DNA from: Deltaproteobacteria bacterium ADurb.Bin207
Lineage (GTDB): Bacteria > Myxococcota_A > Polyangia > Polyangiales > Polyangiaceae
Reading direction: 5' to 3'
Length of the DNA stretch: 64,000 nucleotides
Assembly: GCA_002070115.1 (NCBI GenBank)
Contig: MWCO01000014.1
Coordinates: 1-64,000 of the forward strand
Shown: positions 19,687-42,588 of the stretch, piece after piece
Position numbering within the stretch: the first letter of the stretch is position 1
Layout of the letters: each line of letters starts with the position of its first letter
Program-made: the position numbers and the translations under genes
Notes under the pieces: generated by a model
Databases searched by the model: none
The model's input: the letters and a program-made list of their open reading frames with translations, nothing else
What the model was told of the DNA's origin: nothing

Positions 19687-20634
19687 ATGCGCCTTGTTTC
19701 CGGACGATTTGCCAATCTCGATGGGAGCGTGCCCCAGACCTTTTCTTCCGTTTTCAAGTGGGCGGTGCTCGATCGCATCCTGGGCAGGCGACGACGTTCC
19801 GCTTCTCGCGCTTCGGTTCCTGTGATGGCGGTGGATCTCGAAAGAATTACCACACCGCCCAGCGTGGGAGCGAGGCTGACCTGGCTTGGTCATGCGAGCT
19901 GGTTGGTGCAGCTCGATGGTCTATCGCTGCTCATCGATCCGGTATTTTCGCGATCGATTGGACCTGGGATTGCGCGCAACGTGCCAGCGCCTCTGGCCGC
20001 GCATGAACTTCCCGGGATTGCCGCACAGCTCGTGACGCACAACCATCGCGATCACCTCGACTTGCCATCGCTTCGCGCGGTCGGTTCGCCGATCATCACC
20101 GGTCCGGGACATCGCGCGCTATTCGGTACTGCAGTCGAAACGACGGAATTGGATTGGTGGGAGGCGACCGACCTTGGGCCGGTGCGAATCACTTTCGTGC
20201 CGGCGCAGCATTGGAGTCGTCGTGGGCTTTGGGATGCCAACCGTGGGCTATGGGGAGGGTTCGTCGTGCGAGGTTCGTCTGCGACGATCTATCACGCGGG
20301 GGATAGCGCTTGGTTCGATGGGTTTTCGGGGATTGGAAAACGATTTTCCGACATCGATGCCGCCTTATTGCCCATTGGAGCTTACGACCCGCCCTGGTTC
20401 ATGCAAAAGCAGCACGTCAGTCCCGAGCAAGCAGTTCGCGCGTTCGAAGAACTGGGGGCAAGGTATTTCGTGGCGATGCATTGGGGGACTTTCAAGCTCA
20501 GTGATGAACCTCTGGATGAACCGCCTTTGCGGCTGGAAAAAGAGTGGGAACGCCGTGGGTTCGCACGCGAATTTTTGTGTATTCCCGCGCAAGGGCAGAC
20601 GTTCGAGATAGGTAGGGGCCGTTCGCTTGGGTGA
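19687..20634 (+). CDS. Metallo-beta-lactamase-fold hydrolase (NAPE-PLD/UlaG-like)
   Basis: A 315-residue binuclear-metal hydrolase of the MBL superfamily. The metal motif HNHRDH is at about 118-123, followed by AQHWSRRG, HAGDSAWFDGF and a terminal AMHWGTF. This motif series matches the bacterial proteins related to N-acyl-phosphatidylethanolamine phospholipase D. The substrate cannot be read from sequence; a phospholipid is possible. It begins 29 nt after the POT gene, so it may share its transcript. No signal peptide is obvious. Confidence 0.85.
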   Translation: MRLVSGRFANLDGSVPQTFSSVFKWAVLDRILGRRRRSASRASVPVMAVDLERITTPPSVGARLTWLGHASWLVQLDGLSLLIDPVFSRSIGPGIARNVPAPLAAHELPGIAAQLVTHNHRDHLDLPSLRAVGSPIITGPGHRALFGTAVETTELDWWEATDLGPVRITFVPAQHWSRRGLWDANRGLWGGFVVRGSSATIYHAGDSAWFDGFSGIGKRFSDIDAALLPIGAYDPPWFMQKQHVSPEQAVRAFEELGARYFVAMHWGTFKLSDEPLDEPPLRLEKEWERRGFAREFLCIPAQGQTFEIGRGRSLG

Positions 20635-32444: not shown

Positions 32445-32573
32445 ATGATGGGGTCTATCAGCTATGGCTATGGCGGTAACCAACGAGCTTCGCCGCTTGT
32501 TCGAACGCCGGAAATGGATTGGTTGCCTCGCTTCGTTAGGAGACTTGAAATTGTCTTGGAGGTGAAGGAATGA
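32445..32573 (+). CDS. Short leader ORF, translationally coupled to the giant lipoprotein
   Basis: A 42-codon frame starts at ATG 32445 with an excellent AAGGAGG 8 nt upstream (32430-32436). Its stop overlaps the start of the downstream gene as ATGA at 32570-32573. The peptide (begins MMGSISYGYGGNQRAS) has no signal sequence and no recognised family. The strong ribosome binding site and overlap argue for real translation, either as a regulatory leader or a small protein. The coding assignment is an inference. Confidence 0.5.
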   Translation: MMGSISYGYGGNQRASPLVRTPEMDWLPRFVRRLEIVLEVKE

Positions 32574-35500
32574 CACGGTCAAGTTTTTGGATATCAGCGG
32601 TCCCACGATTACTATTAGGCCTTTTATTACTCGTTCTTCCTCTCGGAGGGATGGCCTGCGGCGACGGCGACGATGAACCGTCCGAGCCTGGGGTCACCCT
32701 CAAATCAATTGCTATCAGTCCTGCCACCGCCAACATCGCGGTCGGCGCAACACAACAATTTGCGGTCAACGGTGTGTACAGCGATGGCAAGACCAAGCCT
32801 GTAAAAACCGGCGTGACCTGGACTTCCAGTTCTACCACGGTAGCGACCATCAACACTGCCGGTCTTGCCACCGCGGTGGGCGACGGAACCACGACCATCA
32901 CCGCCGCGGTCGGCAAACTCAAGGCTACCGCTTCGTTGACCGTCTTGACCAAAGCGCTCACCGGCGTGCAAATCACGCCGGCTTCCGCTTCGATCGGGGT
33001 CGGCACGACGCAGCAATATGCGGCCACGGCCAACTACAACGACGGCACGACCAGTGATGTGACGGCAACCGCGACGTGGGCTTCTTCGGATGCTGCCGTG
33101 GCTACCATCAGCGCCACCGGTCTTGCTTCCGGCGTTGCCGCAGGCAACACGACCATCTCCGCGACGTTCGAAGGCACGACCGGTACGGCGCTGCTTTCGG
33201 TGACGGCAAAGACGATGACGAAGATTGTGGTCACCCCTGCCACGGCCGAGATCGCGGTAGGCGTGAACCAACCGTTCGTGGCGATGGCTCACTTCAACGA
33301 CAACACGACGCAGGTCGTGACGACGGAAGTAACGTGGGAATCTTCGAATACCAAGGTTGCCACGATTGCCTCGAATGGAACGGCAACGGGCGTCGGTGCT
33401 GGAGAAACGACCATCACCGCTACGCATAGCGCGGGCCCGTCGGGTTCCGCCAAGCTGACGGTCAAAGCGGTTGGTCCCACCGAGCTGAGTGTGAGCTGCA
33501 CGGACGTCAAACTTGCCGCTGGCGTGACGACGCAGTGCAAAGCAGTGGCCACGATGGATGATGGATCCACGGCCGACGTTACCTCGCAGGCGACTTGGAA
33601 ATCCGACAAGGATACCGTGGCTACCGTATCCAATGCGGGCCTCGTCACGGCCAAGGGCGAAGGCAAAGCGAATATCTCCGCCGAGTACCAGGGATTGTCG
33701 GGAAGCGTCGAAATCGAAGTCACCGCCGCGGTATTGGCGGCGATCCAGGTAACCCCGGCCAACGCCGTGGTTGCTCTCGGTACCACGCAACAGTACACCG
33801 CAACCGGTGTGTATAGTGATGCGACCACCCACGACATCACGGACGACGTGAACTGGATTTCCAGCGACCTCACGGTTGCGACCATCGACGGCGACGGTCT
33901 TGCCACCACCCTCAAGGCGGGACAAACGACCATTTCCGCCACCCTTGCAGGTGTCACCGGGACGGCAACGCTGACGGTAACCGGTGCCACGCCTACTTCC
34001 GTGGTCGTCTCGCCGGCTACGGCGACCACCGCCACGGGTGGAACGGTTCAGTTCACGGCGATGGTTCATTTCTCGGACGGCACGCAGCAGAATCTAACCT
34101 CTGCGGCTTCTTGGTCCTCGAGCAATGATACGATTGCCACCGTCGTTGGCGGTTTGGCGACAGGCGTTGCAAAAGGCACGGCCACCATCACCGCCACGTA
34201 TTCCGGGCAATCCGGTACGGCGTCGTTGGAGGTAACCGATGCGACGGTGACCTCGGTGGTGGTTTCCCCTGCATCGGCAAGCATCCACAAAGGAGGAACC
34301 CAGCAATTCGAGGCCGTCGCGCATCTCAGCGATGGCACCAATACCGGCGTGTTGACTACGGGCGTCACCTGGGTTTCGGACAACACTTCCGTGGTGACAA
34401 TTAATGCCGATGGGCTTGCTACCGGACTGGCTGTGGGCTCCGCCCATATTCGGGCGACCTATAACTCCGTGCAATCCGCGTTGGTGCCCATTACGGTGGG
34501 AAATGCTGTACCTACCTCCCTGACGATTACTCCGCCTTCGGCCGAAATCGCAAAGGGAACGAAGGCTACCTTCACGGCAAGGGCAACGTTGAGCGATGGC
34601 ACCGTGCAGGATGTGACCTCCGCGGCGAATTGGTCGTCGAGCAACACCGCGGTTGCCACGGTGGACAAGGGAGTTGCCACTGGCGTCGAGGCCAACGCGA
34701 ACCCCGTGACCATCTTGGCCGAATACCAAACGCTGACCGCCACAGCTTCCTTGACGGTCAAAGCGGCGGATCTGACTGCCATCACCATAAGTGTTTCGAA
34801 CGCCAAGGTTCCTGTTGGTTCACAAATCACCTTCAAAGCCATCGGCAGTTACACCGATGGAACTTCTCAAGCCATCAGCGACCTTGTGAATTGGAACCAG
34901 AATCCCGCCGGCCGCTTGTCGTTTGCGAACGGAGGCACGGCCGATAGCAAGCTCGCCACGGGTGCAACCGTCGGCACGACATCGGTGACCGCTACTCTCA
35001 ACGGAGTCACGAGCAACGCCTTGAGCGTCGAAGTCGTGCCCGTCCTGTTGCAGAGCATCTCCATTACTCCGGCCATCACCCAGAACAAGTACGTCGGTGA
35101 GACGGTTCAGTTCAATGCTCTTGGGCATTTCGATGACGGATCGTCCCATGACATTACGGCTGACGCGACGTTGACCTGGGTATCGAGCCATGCATCCGTA
35201 ACGATATCCAATGGGACCAACAAGGGACGAGCCACGGCGGCTGCCGTGGGTTCCGCCAATATCACAGCCCGTGTTGGCGCGATCGTATCGCCGGCGACGC
35301 AGGTCAATGTTCTTGCGCAGCCCACCATCGTGGCCATCCAACTCGAGCCCACCTCTTGGGAAACCAGCATTGGTGGGAGCGAAACTTTCTGGGCGACGCA
35401 GATCAACCAGGATGGAACCTCGGGGTATCTGACGGATGGGGTCTGGACCATCGAAGACGCCAATGGTGCGATCGTAACGAATCTTTCTATCGATCTGTCG

Positions 35501-38500
35501 GTTCCGCACGCGGCCATCATTGTGGCGGTTTCGCCTACGACGAACCTTCCGGGGGGCGTTGCGTATGTTGCGGTGGCGAAGGGCTTGATTAAGACGCGTG
35601 CGCCGGTGAAGGTCAAGGCTACGACCATCACGTCCATTGCGGTGAACTGTCCTGCACCGAATACCTGTCTTCCGACAGGCGTTGGGTACCTCGCGAATTG
35701 CACGGCCCAAGCCACCTATTCGGATGGAACGACGGGTGATGTTACCAAAACAGCTACTTGGTCTGTGACTACATCACCCGGAACGGGAGTTGCCTTGGCG
35801 CTACCGCAAGGGGAGATCCAGATTGGTTCTACCGCTGGTACTGCCAATGTTTTCGCTACGATGGGCTCAGTTACCAACGCGACTCCCGCGGTCCTGACAT
35901 CCAGGGCTCGAACGATCAGCAGCCTTTCGGCAGGCGGGAACTTTTCGTTGGCGATGGGCGACTACAGCGATCGCAAAGCCACGGCCACCTATCAAGCGCT
36001 GACAGGATGTTCGGACAACACGTTCGATGTAACGAAGTTTGCGGATTGGTCGTCGAGCAACACCGCGGTTGCCACGGTGGACAACAGTGCGAACAAGGGT
36101 CGTGTTCAGGCGGTCGCTTCGGGGCAAGCGAGTATTCAGGCATCGTTTTCAGGAATCCAGAATATAGCGATTGCTACCGTTTCGGCTGCCTGTATCAAGG
36201 AAATCGAGATCCAAGTGGTAGAGGAAGCCCCCGCGAATGTTACCGTACCGATTGTGGCGATGGCTGAACTCAGTGACGGATCGAGCGCTCCCCTTCCGGT
36301 TGCGGCGGGGTCTTGGGGCACGGCTCCAGTCACGAACGGCTACTTGGATGTGGGGACATCCGACATCGATATTACCTATACATACACCGGAAGCTCGCTT
36401 TGCGCGGGCGTGCCCAATACCGCGACGGCGAAGCTGACCATCGATAAGGATGCTGTCCTACAGAGTGTTGCCGTCGAACCGTCGACTTCCACTATCACGA
36501 TTGGTGGACATCAGGACTTCGTCGCTAGTGCCCACTTCGATAGCGGCACTTTCAACGTGAGCCGATTCGCGGTTTGGACGCATGCTCCGGCATTCCCATT
36601 GTCTCAAGCCGCATCTCCCAGCGCGGTTCCTGCCCGACGTTTTACCCACACGGGTACGGTGGGAGGTTCCACGAATGTATTGGCCAACTACAAGGCAATG
36701 GCATCGAACCCGGCCGTACTGACCGTTTCTGGTGCTGCGCCTACGGCCATCGAGGTCAGACGGGCTGACTTCGTTCCCGCTCCGGTCGGAACCAATTACG
36801 CCTATCCTCCGAATTTCACCGTGACCACCGTGGCGCGGGTCAAATATTCGGATGGAACGGAAATTGACAATCCGACGTGCGTCTCTTGGCAGTCGAGCCA
36901 TCCGGGTTACTTGAACTTCACGAATCCGAATGCACCCACGGCAACGACGTACTCGAATACGACGGCACAAACGGTAACGATTACGGCGACGTGCGGGACC
37001 CTCTCCGCGACGGCCACGGTGCAGGTGATTCCGGCTGTATTGGATGAATTCCGATTCAACCCAGATTCGCCTGTTACGCGTCCGCGAAATACTTCTTTCC
37101 CCCTGACAGTGGAAGGAAGGTACGGCACTTCCTGGTGGGATGTCTCTTCGATGGTGTCCATCAGCAACCCGCCGTCTGGAATTGCTTCGGCGACTGTGGT
37201 TTCCGGAAAGGTGATGGTTCAAACCGGTGCCAATGCTGGAACGGCTACCATCAGTTTCACCAAGGACACAATCACCCGTGGGTATGTCGTTAACGTCGAT
37301 ACTTCCAATTGTCTCGATAGTATCGAGTTTACGGCCCCCACGGCAGACCCCGTTTCGTTGGGCGTCAATCAAACCGTGGATTTCCAGGCCCGTGCTCATT
37401 ACACGAATGGGACGACGGGTGTGCTCACCACTGGTACCTGGACCCCCAGCTTGACGGGTGACGGTGTCCTGATTCGAACGACGGACTCGGGCAACACGCG
37501 AACCTTCCGGGGCGTTGCTGTTGGTGAATCCAAGGTTACTTTCACCTATTCCGGGTCGAATGTGTGTGCTGGCGGCAACACCGCAATCAACACGATTACG
37601 ATTGAACGGGATGTGAACGTAATCCAGAAGGTTGCTTCGGCGATCACCATTCGGCCGGAGCCGGTGTCTGGACAGTCGCGTCGGCGCATTCCGCGCGGCC
37701 AAGATATCCAGCTCTCAGCATGGCTCTCCTTCACGGATCCTGCGATTCCCGCGGAAGACGTAACGGAGTCGGTGACCTGGAGTGTGACTCCTTCGTCGAT
37801 CGCCGGTATTACCGCTGGCGGACTGCTTAAAGGGAATGCAGTCGGAACCGGTGAAGCAAAGGCCGTATTGGGGTCCTTGACGGCAACTCTTGGAATCGAT
37901 GTGGTTGCCTGTGGGAATCCAGCCCTTTCCATTACCAGCCCCTCTGCCGTGGCTCTGCCCATTGGTCAAACACGGGATTACACGGCGTCGGCATCCTACA
38001 CATGCTCTGGACTTTCCGCGTCTGAACTCGGGCCTTTCCCTGTGACGACATTGGTGACATGGAATAGCTCCGTACCGGCCAGCGCAGCTTTCGAAACCTC
38101 GGCCTTCCCGAACCGCATTACGGCCAAAGCCGCGGGAAGCACCAATATTACCGCTCAATACAACGGCGCCACTTCCAACACGATTGGTCTCAGTGTCGTG
38201 GCGGTCACGCTTCAGTCGCTGACCATCACCTCTTCCGGGCCAATGTATGTCGGAGGAGAGCGAGACATCAACGTATCGGCGGTATGGAGAGCGGGTACGA
38301 CAGACTATAACTTGGATCCACCTCCTGCTCTTACTTGGGTCATTGGGGATCCGACCGCCATCAGCATTACGGCTACGGCTGATCCCAAGAAGTACATTCT
38401 CAGGGGATTGGCGGCTGTGGCGGATATCACTTACCGCGCTCGACACGATACGATCAACTCCAATACCTTGACCGTATCGGTAGCGAATACCTGCATCAAC

Positions 38501-39982
38501 GAGGTCCGTTATGCTGTAGGTGACCGAACGATGCCTAAGGGAATATCCGGAGGGTTGAAACTCGAGTGCCAAAACTCGGCGGCCCCGGGAGTGTGGGATG
38601 AGTGCCCCGCGACCGGAACTGCCTCGTTCGTCTCGAGCGACTCGAAGGTAGTGTCCGTTACAGGCGCAACGTTCAAGGTCGTGGGCGCGGTCAATGAATA
38701 CGCGGATATCACGGGTACCTATACCGGCACCGGCGCTTGTACGGGCGTAACTCTGACGGATGAGGCTCGAATCACCGTGGGTTCCGCGAAAGTGGCGTCG
38801 ATTGTGGTAAACGGACCGGATGCGGTCGCCAAGAACCATACGGCGCAATACGCTGCTTCGGCTACGTTCACCGGTGGTACGGGAGCTGGCACCTACAACA
38901 TCGCGGCGGATGCTATCTGGACCTCGACCAATGAGGCCGTGGCGACCGTCAGCGCAGGTGTTTTGACCAGCAAGAATGTCAATGGCACCACCTATCTCAG
39001 CGCTACTTTCGAAGGCATTTCCTCGCCGCTCAAACTCGTGACCATCAATGACAAGGTGCCAACCAAGATCACCGTGTGGGCGGATTGGAACCTCGTAAGT
39101 GAAAACGGCGGACCTGCCGTTCCAGCCACGGGTGCCGATGCAGAATACCCGACCGGCAACTGGAAGCTACAGCTTCATGGCACGGTTGACTATTCGGATG
39201 GCACCAGTGACGACGATCCGGCTGGAGTGACTTGGGTAACCCGAGGCACGCTCCTCAAGGACGTTTCCGTCACCGGTGGGTTGTTCAACACGGGCGATAC
39301 GGCCAATGATGCGCTGCAAACCGTTCGTGCGACCTACACGTACAATGGCGTGACCGTCGATGACGACTTCACCGTTCGGATGCGAAGATCGACAGCAACT
39401 TCGACCATCGTCATTCGCAACACCACCAACACCGGTGCAGGTGTCGCGTCGGTACCCCTCGGGTTGACGCAACCCTACGGTGCTCGCCTCACCTATGGCG
39501 GCCGTTACTACTGGTTTACCCGTAACGCCACTTGGGCATCCGCAACGCCAAGTGTGGGAACGATCGCGCAGAGCGGTTCCGGACACGCCATTCTGTCCAC
39601 GGTGGCGGTGGGCTCGACGCAAATCACGGCTTCAGCCTTGGGAGCCATGGGGGCGTTGACGGTCAGCGTGACGAATGCTGTGCCGGTTTCCATCTATTGT
39701 ATGCCGGCAAACCTGTCCCTCAGCCTTCTGGGGAGCAACAAAGCTCAGCTATTTGCCTTCGTGAAAAACAGCAGTGGGCCAGATACCGAGGTCACCGTTG
39801 CTGCGGGAACGTCATGGGCAAGCAGCGACGTATTGCTGGCTGAGTTCCTGAGTTCCGACCCCAAGGGGATGATCACGGCGAAGGCGAAAGGTACCGTATA
39901 CGTGGTTCCGACCTTTACAAACGGTACGGTTACTTTGACTCCCTCGGATGACGACCGCTGCGAAATCACCATCACGGACTGA
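32570..39982 (+). CDS. Giant lipoprotein of about 26 bacterial Ig-like (BIg2-type) modules
   Basis: A 2470-residue surface protein. The signal ends in lipobox GGMAC (Cys30), followed by an acidic linker. The rest is a chain of modules of about 80-110 residues, each opening like SIAISPATANIAVGATQQF, with a central W-x-S-S and ending in an alternating strand such as ATASLTV. By eye I count about 26. The first eight are regular and similar; later ones diverge, gain Cys pairs (for example NCLDS with NVCAGG) and vary in length. BIg2-type domains occur in intimins, invasins and other adhesins, so adhesion or cell-surface contact is likely. No catalytic domain or C-terminal sorting signal is visible. 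GGAGG and AAGGA precede the ATG. Confidence 0.9.
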   Translation: MTRSSFWISAVPRLLLGLLLLVLPLGGMACGDGDDEPSEPGVTLKSIAISPATANIAVGATQQFAVNGVYSDGKTKPVKTGVTWTSSSTTVATINTAGLATAVGDGTTTITAAVGKLKATASLTVLTKALTGVQITPASASIGVGTTQQYAATANYNDGTTSDVTATATWASSDAAVATISATGLASGVAAGNTTISATFEGTTGTALLSVTAKTMTKIVVTPATAEIAVGVNQPFVAMAHFNDNTTQVVTTEVTWESSNTKVATIASNGTATGVGAGETTITATHSAGPSGSAKLTVKAVGPTELSVSCTDVKLAAGVTTQCKAVATMDDGSTADVTSQATWKSDKDTVATVSNAGLVTAKGEGKANISAEYQGLSGSVEIEVTAAVLAAIQVTPANAVVALGTTQQYTATGVYSDATTHDITDDVNWISSDLTVATIDGDGLATTLKAGQTTISATLAGVTGTATLTVTGATPTSVVVSPATATTATGGTVQFTAMVHFSDGTQQNLTSAASWSSSNDTIATVVGGLATGVAKGTATITATYSGQSGTASLEVTDATVTSVVVSPASASIHKGGTQQFEAVAHLSDGTNTGVLTTGVTWVSDNTSVVTINADGLATGLAVGSAHIRATYNSVQSALVPITVGNAVPTSLTITPPSAEIAKGTKATFTARATLSDGTVQDVTSAANWSSSNTAVATVDKGVATGVEANANPVTILAEYQTLTATASLTVKAADLTAITISVSNAKVPVGSQITFKAIGSYTDGTSQAISDLVNWNQNPAGRLSFANGGTADSKLATGATVGTTSVTATLNGVTSNALSVEVVPVLLQSISITPAITQNKYVGETVQFNALGHFDDGSSHDITADATLTWVSSHASVTISNGTNKGRATAAAVGSANITARVGAIVSPATQVNVLAQPTIVAIQLEPTSWETSIGGSETFWATQINQDGTSGYLTDGVWTIEDANGAIVTNLSIDLSVPHAAIIVAVSPTTNLPGGVAYVAVAKGLIKTRAPVKVKATTITSIAVNCPAPNTCLPTGVGYLANCTAQATYSDGTTGDVTKTATWSVTTSPGTGVALALPQGEIQIGSTAGTANVFATMGSVTNATPAVLTSRARTISSLSAGGNFSLAMGDYSDRKATATYQALTGCSDNTFDVTKFADWSSSNTAVATVDNSANKGRVQAVASGQASIQASFSGIQNIAIATVSAACIKEIEIQVVEEAPANVTVPIVAMAELSDGSSAPLPVAAGSWGTAPVTNGYLDVGTSDIDITYTYTGSSLCAGVPNTATAKLTIDKDAVLQSVAVEPSTSTITIGGHQDFVASAHFDSGTFNVSRFAVWTHAPAFPLSQAASPSAVPARRFTHTGTVGGSTNVLANYKAMASNPAVLTVSGAAPTAIEVRRADFVPAPVGTNYAYPPNFTVTTVARVKYSDGTEIDNPTCVSWQSSHPGYLNFTNPNAPTATTYSNTTAQTVTITATCGTLSATATVQVIPAVLDEFRFNPDSPVTRPRNTSFPLTVEGRYGTSWWDVSSMVSISNPPSGIASATVVSGKVMVQTGANAGTATISFTKDTITRGYVVNVDTSNCLDSIEFTAPTADPVSLGVNQTVDFQARAHYTNGTTGVLTTGTWTPSLTGDGVLIRTTDSGNTRTFRGVAVGESKVTFTYSGSNVCAGGNTAINTITIERDVNVIQKVASAITIRPEPVSGQSRRRIPRGQDIQLSAWLSFTDPAIPAEDVTESVTWSVTPSSIAGITAGGLLKGNAVGTGEAKAVLGSLTATLGIDVVACGNPALSITSPSAVALPIGQTRDYTASASYTCSGLSASELGPFPVTTLVTWNSSVPASAAFETSAFPNRITAKAAGSTNITAQYNGATSNTIGLSVVAVTLQSLTITSSGPMYVGGERDINVSAVWRAGTTDYNLDPPPALTWVIGDPTAISITATADPKKYILRGLAAVADITYRARHDTINSNTLTVSVANTCINEVRYAVGDRTMPKGISGGLKLECQNSAAPGVWDECPATGTASFVSSDSKVVSVTGATFKVVGAVNEYADITGTYTGTGACTGVTLTDEARITVGSAKVASIVVNGPDAVAKNHTAQYAASATFTGGTGAGTYNIAADAIWTSTNEAVATVSAGVLTSKNVNGTTYLSATFEGISSPLKLVTINDKVPTKITVWADWNLVSENGGPAVPATGADAEYPTGNWKLQLHGTVDYSDGTSDDDPAGVTWVTRGTLLKDVSVTGGLFNTGDTANDALQTVRATYTYNGVTVDDDFTVRMRRSTATSTIVIRNTTNTGAGVASVPLGLTQPYGARLTYGGRYYWFTRNATWASATPSVGTIAQSGSGHAILSTVAVGSTQITASALGAMGALTVSVTNAVPVSIYCMPANLSLSLLGSNKAQLFAFVKNSSGPDTEVTVAAGTSWASSDVLLAEFLSSDPKGMITAKAKGTVYVVPTFTNGTVTLTPSDDDRCEITITD
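34629..34668 (+). repeat. 40-nt exact repeat, copy 1 (Ig-like module 8)
   Basis: This 40-nt segment encoding WSSSNTAVATVD is identical, including third codon positions, to 36045-36084 in module 13, although the surrounding module sequences differ strongly. Confidence 0.9.
36045..36084 (+). repeat. 40-nt exact repeat, copy 2 (Ig-like module 13)
   Basis: Identical to 34629-34668, about 1.4 kb upstream in the same gene. It could reflect gene conversion, or a retained piece of an ancient module duplication. Confidence 0.9.
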
Positions 39983-40165: not shown

Positions 40166-40969
40166 TTAACCGTGCAGCAGCGATAGATCAGGCGGGGTCG
40201 AGGCCAACAAAATCAAACGATCCCTTTCATCCAACGGGCTATCCTTGCCAGGCGTCGTATCTACCCGTGGATTGAAAACCACAACGTTTTCCTGCCGCTC
40301 GCTTTGCGGCCTCGGACGGGGCCGGATATACCCACAGACGACATAAGGCGCATCGTTGCGAATGGCGCGTTTGGCCAATTCACGATAGGTAGAGCCCGCG
40401 AGCGCGCCGGTCATGGGTCGAACGAAAAGCTGCGCCGTGCCAACGCTAGAGGTCAGCAAGTGCGCGAATAGCCGACTCACACCGGGGCTCACCGCGCTTT
40501 GGGAGAGCAATTTCTCCGACAATTCCCCCAAACAAATCACCTCATCGACCGCCGTGGCGCGCAGGTGCGTTCGGTTGATGGAAAGCAATAATTCCATGAC
40601 CGTGTGGACCTGAGGGTTTTCCCGCTCAATCGCAATGCCCACCAACGTGCTTCGGGCGTCGGAAAGCATGCCATGAAGGGGATCCGCCAAGATGATCGCG
40701 GCTTTTGCGTTGGCGATATGAGCGAGCTGCAACGATTCTTTTTGCGCGGGACAGCCAAAAATTTCTATGATTTTCCCTTTTCTCCCCGGGTCTGGGTGCC
40801 AATCCGGCTTTGCATCCCACAGCCTTTTGTCTTGTATGATGAGGGCAATATCGAGATCTCCGTCCACGGGATCGTTGCGAAGTTGCTCCACAATGGCCGG
40901 AACCTTCTCGTTCACGTTGCAAATCACGACGTGGCCGCTCAGCGGCGGGGAAGTTCGTGGGTCTGCCAT
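40166..40969 (-). CDS. Stand-alone second RCK (TrkA-like) domain protein
   Basis: A 267-residue soluble protein without membrane segments. It opens with a Rossmann-like strand GHVVICNVNEKVPAIVEQL, then HIANAKAAIILADP, VMELLLSINRTHL and VICLGELSEKLLSQSAVSPG. A C-terminal beta-rich part has GSTYRELAKRA and ends RLILLAST. The order mirrors the RCK domain of the overlapping upstream channel gene (ILGRND, DARRVIVLSAAD, MHAIAAVARN, SFGEMLMSQSVHNKG, GSTFRQAQEYF). GGAGAAGG precedes the ATG, and the first 31 nt overlap the channel gene. It most likely assembles with that channel as a separate gating-ring subunit. Confidence 0.75.
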   Translation of the reverse strand: MADPRTSPPLSGHVVICNVNEKVPAIVEQLRNDPVDGDLDIALIIQDKRLWDAKPDWHPDPGRKGKIIEIFGCPAQKESLQLAHIANAKAAIILADPLHGMLSDARSTLVGIAIERENPQVHTVMELLLSINRTHLRATAVDEVICLGELSEKLLSQSAVSPGVSRLFAHLLTSSVGTAQLFVRPMTGALAGSTYRELAKRAIRNDAPYVVCGYIRPRPRPQSERQENVVVFNPRVDTTPGKDSPLDERDRLILLASTPPDLSLLHG

Positions 40970-42588
40970 GCCTTCTCCGGATGATGGGGCTCAAAACCAG
41001 GTCGTTCGACAGCGCAAACAATCAAGTAGTCGGAGGCCGTGAGCACGTGATCCCGCAACGGATTGTCCGCGTCGTTTCCGACGCAAAGACGAAAATCCTG
41101 GTAGGCCTGCTGTTCCGGGCCATCGATTCCCAGCAACAAAATGGCTTCCGAGTCGAGATCGAGGAAGTATTCCTGGGCTTGCCGAAACGTGGAGCCAACG
41201 AGGGAGGGAGGAACCCGCAGGCGGTGAAACTCGTTGGTATTGGGAGAAAAGGTCATGAGTTCATCGTAGATTTCGGCGACGCCCTTGTTGTGAACCGATT
41301 GGCTCATCAGCATTTCACCGAAAGAGCGGCTCACCAAGCAATCGGCCGATTGAATCGATGACGCATAACGCAGGCTTTCGGGTTCCTGCAATTCGAGCAC
41401 CAGAGGGATTCTCTTGTTGCGTGCCACCGCCGCGATCGCATGCATCAGCGCGATATTGTCCCGCTCGAGAGGACTTGCTTGCGTGTCTGCCGCGGATAGG
41501 ACGATGACACGACGAGCATCTTCGAGGTTGGCGGCATTGAGGACATCATCGCGGGCAGGGTTTCCTTCGAGCGCAAAAACACGACCATGAACTCGTGGTC
41601 CGGGCGACGGAAGCTGTTCGGCTTCCTGGCAAACCACGAGGATATAGTGTCGTCCGGCGAGGGCGTGGTGTACTTGCTGAATGATTTTTTCGAGGTGATC
41701 GTTGCGACCGAGGATGACGATATGCTCGGCGAGCTTGAGCCCGGGAGGTTTTAGAGCCATGCGTCCGCTGCGTTCTTCGGAGCGTACGAGTACGGAGACG
41801 ACCTCGCCTGTAAAGACGGCGACGATACAGATGCCGACGAGCAGCAGCAAGGTGACGACGATTCGGCCGCCGAGGGAGATGGGCTCCGGCGCGTCCATAC
41901 CGGAGATGATGAAGACAAGCACGCCCCAATAGGATTCCCAATAGTCGGAGGCATAAGGGCTTTGTGAGTTCGCCGTGGTGCTGAGTCTTTCGATGAGATG
42001 CACCAGGTTGGCCCCTGCAATCCATGAGGCCAAGGAAATGAGGCCCAGACGGGCGAGGCGACCGAGGCGATATTGATAAACGAGCGCGGAAGCGTAAATG
42101 CGCGTGACGACAGCGAGCCGATAGAGCGTGTAGCCGTGTCGGAGGATGCGCAGCAGCCGGAGCAAGCGTAAAAAACGCAGTGTGCGCAAGAGCCGGACGG
42201 TTCGCAGCATCAAGAACTCGGAACCGATGCCCATCACGTGGGAGAACATCAAAAATGAGGGCAAGATGGCGATGAGATCGATGAGCGCGTAGGTGGTGAA
42301 CGGATAGCGCCACCGGTTTGGTGACGCATACCAGCGCAACACGTATTCGATGGTAAATAGGAGGGTGAAGGCGGCTTCGGCGATGAGCAAACCTTGATGC
42401 AGCAAGGGATGCCGAACCGCATCGGTTGTATGTTCGATCACGACGGTGGCCGATGAGGCCAAGATGGCTAGGATCAGGAAAACATCGATCCACAGGCCCG
42501 TTCTTGGTTGGGAAGGGTCGCCCCGATATGGCTGAAGAAGCTCGTCGAGCCGCTGCCGGAAAGTCAGTTGCGTTTTGGGTTGGGCCAT
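40939..42588 (-). CDS. Six-helix ion channel with voltage-sensor-like S4 and RCK domain
   Basis: A 549-residue inner-membrane channel. S1 to S3 span about 32-115. S4 (about 129-150) is a clear Arg-every-third pattern (RTVRLLRTLRFLRLLRLLR). S5 (about 181-200) and S6 (about 243-267) flank a pore loop (about 216-240). The canonical K+ filter TVGYGD is absent; at its place is FIISGMDAPEP. A TrkA-N-like RCK domain begins near 288 (EHIVILGRNDHLEKI). This layout recalls RCK-gated K+ channels and CASTOR/POLLUX-like proteins, but ion selectivity cannot be inferred. The gene overlaps a second RCK gene. Confidence 0.8.
   Translation of the reverse strand: MAQPKTQLTFRQRLDELLQPYRGDPSQPRTGLWIDVFLILAILASSATVVIEHTTDAVRHPLLHQGLLIAEAAFTLLFTIEYVLRWYASPNRWRYPFTTYALIDLIAILPSFLMFSHVMGIGSEFLMLRTVRLLRTLRFLRLLRLLRILRHGYTLYRLAVVTRIYASALVYQYRLGRLARLGLISLASWIAGANLVHLIERLSTTANSQSPYASDYWESYWGVLVFIISGMDAPEPISLGGRIVVTLLLLVGICIVAVFTGEVVSVLVRSEERSGRMALKPPGLKLAEHIVILGRNDHLEKIIQQVHHALAGRHYILVVCQEAEQLPSPGPRVHGRVFALEGNPARDDVLNAANLEDARRVIVLSAADTQASPLERDNIALMHAIAAVARNKRIPLVLELQEPESLRYASSIQSADCLVSRSFGEMLMSQSVHNKGVAEIYDELMTFSPNTNEFHRLRVPPSLVGSTFRQAQEYFLDLDSEAILLLGIDGPEQQAYQDFRLCVGNDADNPLRDHVLTASDYLIVCAVERPGFEPHHPEKAWQTHELPRR

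Follow-up and report, generated by a model that had tools for sequence, protein, structure and literature searches.

A putative two-gene RCK channel with a divided gating ring and a replaced K+ filter in Myxococcota and Desulfobacterota

To our knowledge, the bacterial RCK channels characterised to date are K+ channels. In MthK, an internal start yields free RCK domains, four of which join four channel-linked ones in the ring, and GsuK of Geobacter is a two-transmembrane, single-chain K+ channel. GsuK is reported to be gated by nucleotides and Ca2+ (PMC3510474). A ring made of two different proteins is known from TM1088A and TM1088B, which are encoded at one locus, the second being translated via an internal ribosome-binding site (RBS), and which form a 4+4 octameric TrkA RCK ring (PMC4380455). 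CASTOR is a plant nuclear Ca2+ channel without TVGYG; it is Ca2+-selective, and an Asp in its filter is essential for current (PMC6697748). Here we describe a gene pair in a 64,000-nt stretch of contig MWCO01000014.1 of Deltaproteobacteria bacterium ADurb.Bin207 (hereafter the window), consisting of a channel gene and a second gene that encodes a separate RCK domain, RCK2. In a limited search of the open-access literature, we found no prior description of the family, of which an earlier account may exist elsewhere, and no combination of a split RCK ring with a non-K+ filter. Taken singly, its features do have precedents (TM1088A/B, GsuK and CASTOR).

Both genes lie on the minus strand, which the original prediction for this DNA had not specified, with rpoC upstream and 230 nt between rpoC and the pair (Table 1). 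Elsewhere in the window, positions 32570-39982 hold a 2470-aa ORF with many repeated modules that resembles a bacterial Ig-like (BIG2-type) surface lipoprotein.

Table 1. Coordinates of the channel gene, the RCK2 gene and their features in the window
Feature	Positions	Strand	Basis
Channel gene, 549 aa; six-helix voltage-gated-type channel with one RCK domain	40939..42588	minus	ORF, Pfam, model
S1-S4 and S4-S5 linker, residues 30-173; voltage-sensor-like	42070..42501	minus	model; conserved residues in 15 relatives
S4, residues 129-152; Arg/Lys at every third position	42133..42204	minus	sequence, alignment
Pore (S5, pore helix, filter, S6), residues 175-272	41773..42066	minus	model
Filter SGMDAPEP, residues 229-236, at the TVGYGD place; family consensus SGIEDKEP	41881..41904	minus	alignment
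RCK1, N-lobe and C-lobe of the channel's own RCK, residues 286-530	40999..41733	minus	Pfam, profile comparisons
Channel C-terminal tail EKAWQTHELPRR, family consensus EDLWxGkIL.RS; codons hold RBS and start of second gene	40942..40977	minus	alignment
Shine-Dalgarno-like GGAG before ATG of second gene (ATG = 40969-40967)	40975..40978	minus	sequence
31-nt gene overlap, different frames	40939..40969	minus	ORF positions; length equal in seven loci
Second gene, 267 aa; separate RCK domain (RCK2)	40166..40969	minus	Pfam, profile comparisons

The reading of the channel gene as encoding six helices, an Arg-rich S4 and one RCK domain was upheld by the predicted model, by the sequence and its alignment, and by Pfam. 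Ion_trans was found in the window channel (E 1.6e-18; 67.2 bits against a cut-off of 25) and in 15 of 15 relatives, and Slo-like_RCK was likewise above its cut-off (E 2.1e-7). The model contains six long helices, with the pore helix at residues 216-229 and S6 at residues 239-272, followed by an RCK fold. Before S1 (residues 30-54), where Slo channels have an additional S0, it has just a short helix at residues 10-18, as modelled at low alignment depth. Across 15 aligned relatives there is no variation at E81 of S2, D104 of S3, R141 or R144, and almost none at R135 and R138. The predicted models are monomers built on alignments 15-20 sequences deep (pLDDT 75 and 71; pTM 0.58 and 0.49), and the orientation of the voltage-sensor domain (VSD) relative to the ring is unreliable in them.

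The second protein had been proposed to be a separately encoded RCK-like domain, and it does align to RCK domains. Slo-like_RCK was detected above cut-off (E 7.6e-6), and BK_channel_a below cut-off (E 1e-4). In a profile-profile comparison, RCK1 and RCK2 were homologous over 250 columns (E 5.7e-31), so that the second protein comprises both lobes, N and C, of a complete RCK. The proposed 31-nt overlap of the two genes, in different frames, was confirmed as well.

Both genes were present at no fewer than 14 related loci of Myxococcota and Desulfobacterota in the related genomes and genome contigs searched. The pairs are orthologous across the two phyla at 29-50% identity (against the window, 31-46% for the channel and 29-49% for RCK2), a conservation far beyond chance. 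Their distribution is patchy: the pair was found in 6 other genomes out of 317 of the window's class, in 1 of 57 genomes of a second class, and in about 1 in 400 genomes of a Desulfobacterota sample, with the seed genome excluded. In the tree, the closest relative of the window channel is that of L051 (genome G107), which belongs to another class rather than to the window's own family. Scanning the genome contigs with the window channel alone returned no close relative; scanning them with the RCK2 profile returned 11 loci. At L060 (5807-7657) and L061 (5834-7705), a CBS-PAS-histidine kinase gene directly follows RCK2, with a 4-nt overlap in L060, and two-component genes adjoin the pair in L064, L067, L051 and L118.

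A reading of the split as sequencing error, or as decay of a frameshifted gene, is favoured by the overlap of two frames and the existence of single-frame forms and by nothing more; we regard it as refuted in practice, with a probability close to nil. A sequencing frameshift is ruled out by conservation across loci, since a split found at 14 or more related loci is no frameshift artefact. Moreover, the overlap is exactly 31 nt at seven loci in two phyla (the window, L051, L052, L064, L070, L072 and L073), with a proper RBS and ATG. L066 and L068 use the same ATG with an earlier stop, giving an overlap of 22 nt, and loci outside the overlap group are split at a shifted position. A programmed -1 frameshift into RCK2 would be permitted by the frames, but a -1 slippery heptamer is absent from the tails of all 15 channels, which makes a frameshift fusion product unlikely and also speaks against error or decay.

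At nine loci, the EDLW-like codons of the channel, read in the other frame, form a Shine-Dalgarno-like motif followed by the ATG (e.g., AAGGAGGATCTATGG). The product of A-ending codon frequencies over these nine loci is 9e-10, a figure that comes from loci picked for having the ATG and hence does not serve as a test. L060, L061 and L067, which lack the overlap ATG, also retain the tail peptide DLWxGkI. It thus seems to matter in its own right, at the level of the protein, perhaps as a docking tail. The overlap itself looks old and functional. This dual-coding tail, a conserved peptide whose codons also supply an RBS and a start codon, would be a tidy example of an overlap kept through long divergence.

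The proposal that tandem RCK domains are divided here between two coupled genes is supported by these loci, and the notion of a divided tandem ring is further supported by natural fusions. Channel and RCK2 occur in one frame in L069 (Desulfoluna; 827-aa open frame) and in L118 (genome G781; 772 aa). These two group together within the SG-type clade (named for its filter, see below) with support of 98, a placement that points to the split as the older state and to the single-chain forms as derived. A distant, long-branch relative of the family with the filter SGFDIPDG, L057 2691-5033 (genome G231), is a two-transmembrane channel whose single chain carries tandem RCKs; the RCK2 profile gives the second of them 191 bits. 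Single chains were seen in the family only in L069, L118 and this two-transmembrane relative; in the window the ORFs are separate.

Fusions are standard evidence for the joint action of separate proteins. They show association in the fused species and suggest it elsewhere, and this bears on whether RCK2 might stand outside the ring of this channel, working by itself or, in the manner of TrkA and TrkH, on a different transporter. Such a role would fit the encoding of RCK2 as a free protein and the known cases of soluble RCK subunits that control a membrane partner distinct from themselves (TrkA, KtrA). Against this, the two genes are always adjacent or overlapping where a contig carries both, they are fused in L069 and L118, and tandem RCKs also occur in L057. 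We therefore consider an independent RCK2 highly improbable and favour a ring shared by both proteins.

At L054 (3791-4501), L055 (2909-3616), L056 (3730-4434) and L029 (686-1375), where the channels have a canonical TVGYGD filter, the neighbouring gene likewise encodes a second RCK and overlaps by 4 nt; L053 is a single-chain version (908 aa) of a TVGYGD channel with second RCK. Judged from these gene arrangements, the split-ring layout is wider than the SG-type filter family.

Among solved structures, the channel profile was closest to BK/Slo, matching Aplysia BK over VSD, pore and RCK1 (9.8e-23), and the best Foldseek matches of the channel model were Slo1 and Slo2. The RCK2 profile matched the gating rings of Slo1 (3e-13), Slo2, DMI1 and CASTOR. 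The model of the L069 fusion (mean pLDDT 71) fitted the ring subunit of LjCASTOR over both RCKs (Z 31.8; 424 residues; rmsd 5.0), with a Z of 25.8 for DMI1 and of about 22 for GsuK; the fold of this model also corresponds to the tandem-RCK ring of BK/Slo. From these matches and the fit of the L069 model, it is most likely that the pair builds a Slo/CASTOR-type ring from two chains. Castor_Poll_mid scored 19.1 and 15.0 bits in the window proteins, below the Pfam cut-off of 26.7, and better in some relatives (E down to 1e-8).

The original prediction had also stated that the K+ filter TVGYGD is missing and that SGMDAPEP occupies its place. This proved correct, and the replacement extends to a whole clade. 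The K+ signature (TVGYG or TVGFG) is absent from the window channel and from all rows of the family, which are of SG(I/M/F) type with the pattern SG(I/M)(E/D)xxxP, most often SGIEDKEP. The window filter deviates from this consensus; other variants are SGIEDKAP (L060, L061), SGIEEKEP (L118) and SGMDASRP (L051). The acidic residue, D232 in the window channel, is conserved in the family and stands in a motif that has no known selectivity match. In a tree of 74 channels with the filter columns omitted, the 18 SG-type rows formed one clade (SH-aLRT 98), to which neither the canonical TVGYG rows nor another non-canonical group belonged. The replacement of the filter is therefore a property of the clade. 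A TVGYG-like DNA match at window position 20240 belongs to no channel; it is out of frame within a 315-aa ORF that is unrelated. Six-helix, single-RCK channels of a large Myxococcota clade (L036, L040, L014, L043, L049, L048 and others; support 96) carry another non-canonical motif at the TVGYGD place, roughly [AG][AG]EP[VI]GxxPxT, which is a separate replacement of the K+ filter.

By signature, the window channel is not a K+ channel. It could still conduct K+, or all monovalent cations, if the conserved SG backbone positions supply carbonyl sites; the first glycine of GYG is retained, the pore is clearly homologous to those of K+ channels, and prokaryotic channels with variant filters can be non-selective, as reported for NirBac (PMC4607889). 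We judge this unlikely, as TVGYGD is reduced to its first glycine in all family members, a conserved acidic residue replaces the signature, and the TVGYGD outgroups in the tree suggest that the filter was replaced. A pore that is dead or closed, leaving a non-conducting, membrane-bound sensor of voltage or ligand, is less probable again: the filter matches no known conducting motif and two-component signalling genes adjoin some loci, but a dead pore should drift, whereas the filter with its flanks (SYW...SGIEDKEP.S..GR) and S6 are strongly conserved across the family. For a conducting pore with a replaced filter, the permeant ion may differ from that of known RCK channels, given that the non-K+ filter is clade-wide and its acidic residue conserved. 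By analogy with CASTOR, where loss of TVGYG and an essential filter Asp go with Ca2+ selectivity, permeation of divalent or of mixed, poorly selective cations is our leading guess for the SG-type channels, and no more than that.

Taken together, we consider it probable that the pair forms a channel of the Slo/CASTOR type that combines a non-K+ filter with a heteromeric 4+4 RCK ring. The domains, their homology, the conserved pairing and overlap, the natural fusions and the clade-wide filter are shown by the data; from them we infer assembly, stoichiometry, voltage gating, ligand and ion as follows. A tetrameric channel, contributing VSD, pore and RCK1, would join four copies of RCK2 in an octameric cytosolic gating ring, the counterpart of the ring that Slo/BK and CASTOR build from tandem RCK1-RCK2. 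An RBS of its own, located within the final codons of the channel gene, would serve the translation of RCK2 and help to hold the amounts of both proteins near equal. A ring ligand, together with voltage acting on S4, would open the gate at S6. An ion is a more probable ligand than a nucleotide, since both window RCKs (HIVILGRNDHL and HVVICNVNEKV) and 15 aligned relatives of each lack, after the first strand, the GxGxxG motif for nucleotide binding. The pore would pass divalent or mixed cations; that it is not K+-selective is probable from the conserved acid and the lack of a K+ signature in SG(M/I)(D/E)xxxP. More tentatively, and in our estimate at somewhat lower than even chances, the family could comprise bacterial voltage- and ligand-gated Ca2+ (or divalent) channels with an obligate heteromeric RCK ring and a new SG(I/M)(E/D)xxxP filter, that is, a two-gene prokaryotic counterpart of CASTOR.

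A clade that joins a voltage sensor and a tandem-type ring to a replaced K+ filter would offer a natural test of RCK gating combined with other selectivities, as in CASTOR. A split ring would make it possible to express, mutate and titrate each RCK on its own, an option closed to single-chain BK and CASTOR.

Among known systems, MthK has a free RCK identical to the linked one and a K+ filter, whereas RCK2 is a distinct paralogue with its own gene and the window channel lacks that filter. GsuK resembles the family in being bacterial and in having two RCK domains per subunit (PMC3510474). TM1088A/B is the direct precedent for a split ring (PMC4380455); its ring serves a Trk transporter encoded apart (TM1089), and the pore is in neither RCK protein, unlike in the window channel. 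Slo1/Slo2 (Slo/BK) provide the best match for VSD, pore and RCK1, and their ring matches RCK2, but Slo combines a K+ filter with a single chain holding both RCKs; the window pair has a replaced filter and a split ring, and only six helices are predicted for its channel. By chain organisation, the pair is thus no member of Slo. CASTOR, POLLUX and DMI1 share with the SG-type pair the tandem-RCK ring fold (via the L069 model), the lack of TVGYG and an acidic filter residue. Their filter, however, is AD(S/A)GNHA as opposed to SGIEDKEP or SGMDAPEP, CASTOR/POLLUX is a single chain in place of two proteins, and it is described with four transmembrane segments (PMC6697748), against six helices with an Arg-rich S4 in the window channel. 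By filter or by Pfam cut-off, the pair is no member of CASTOR.
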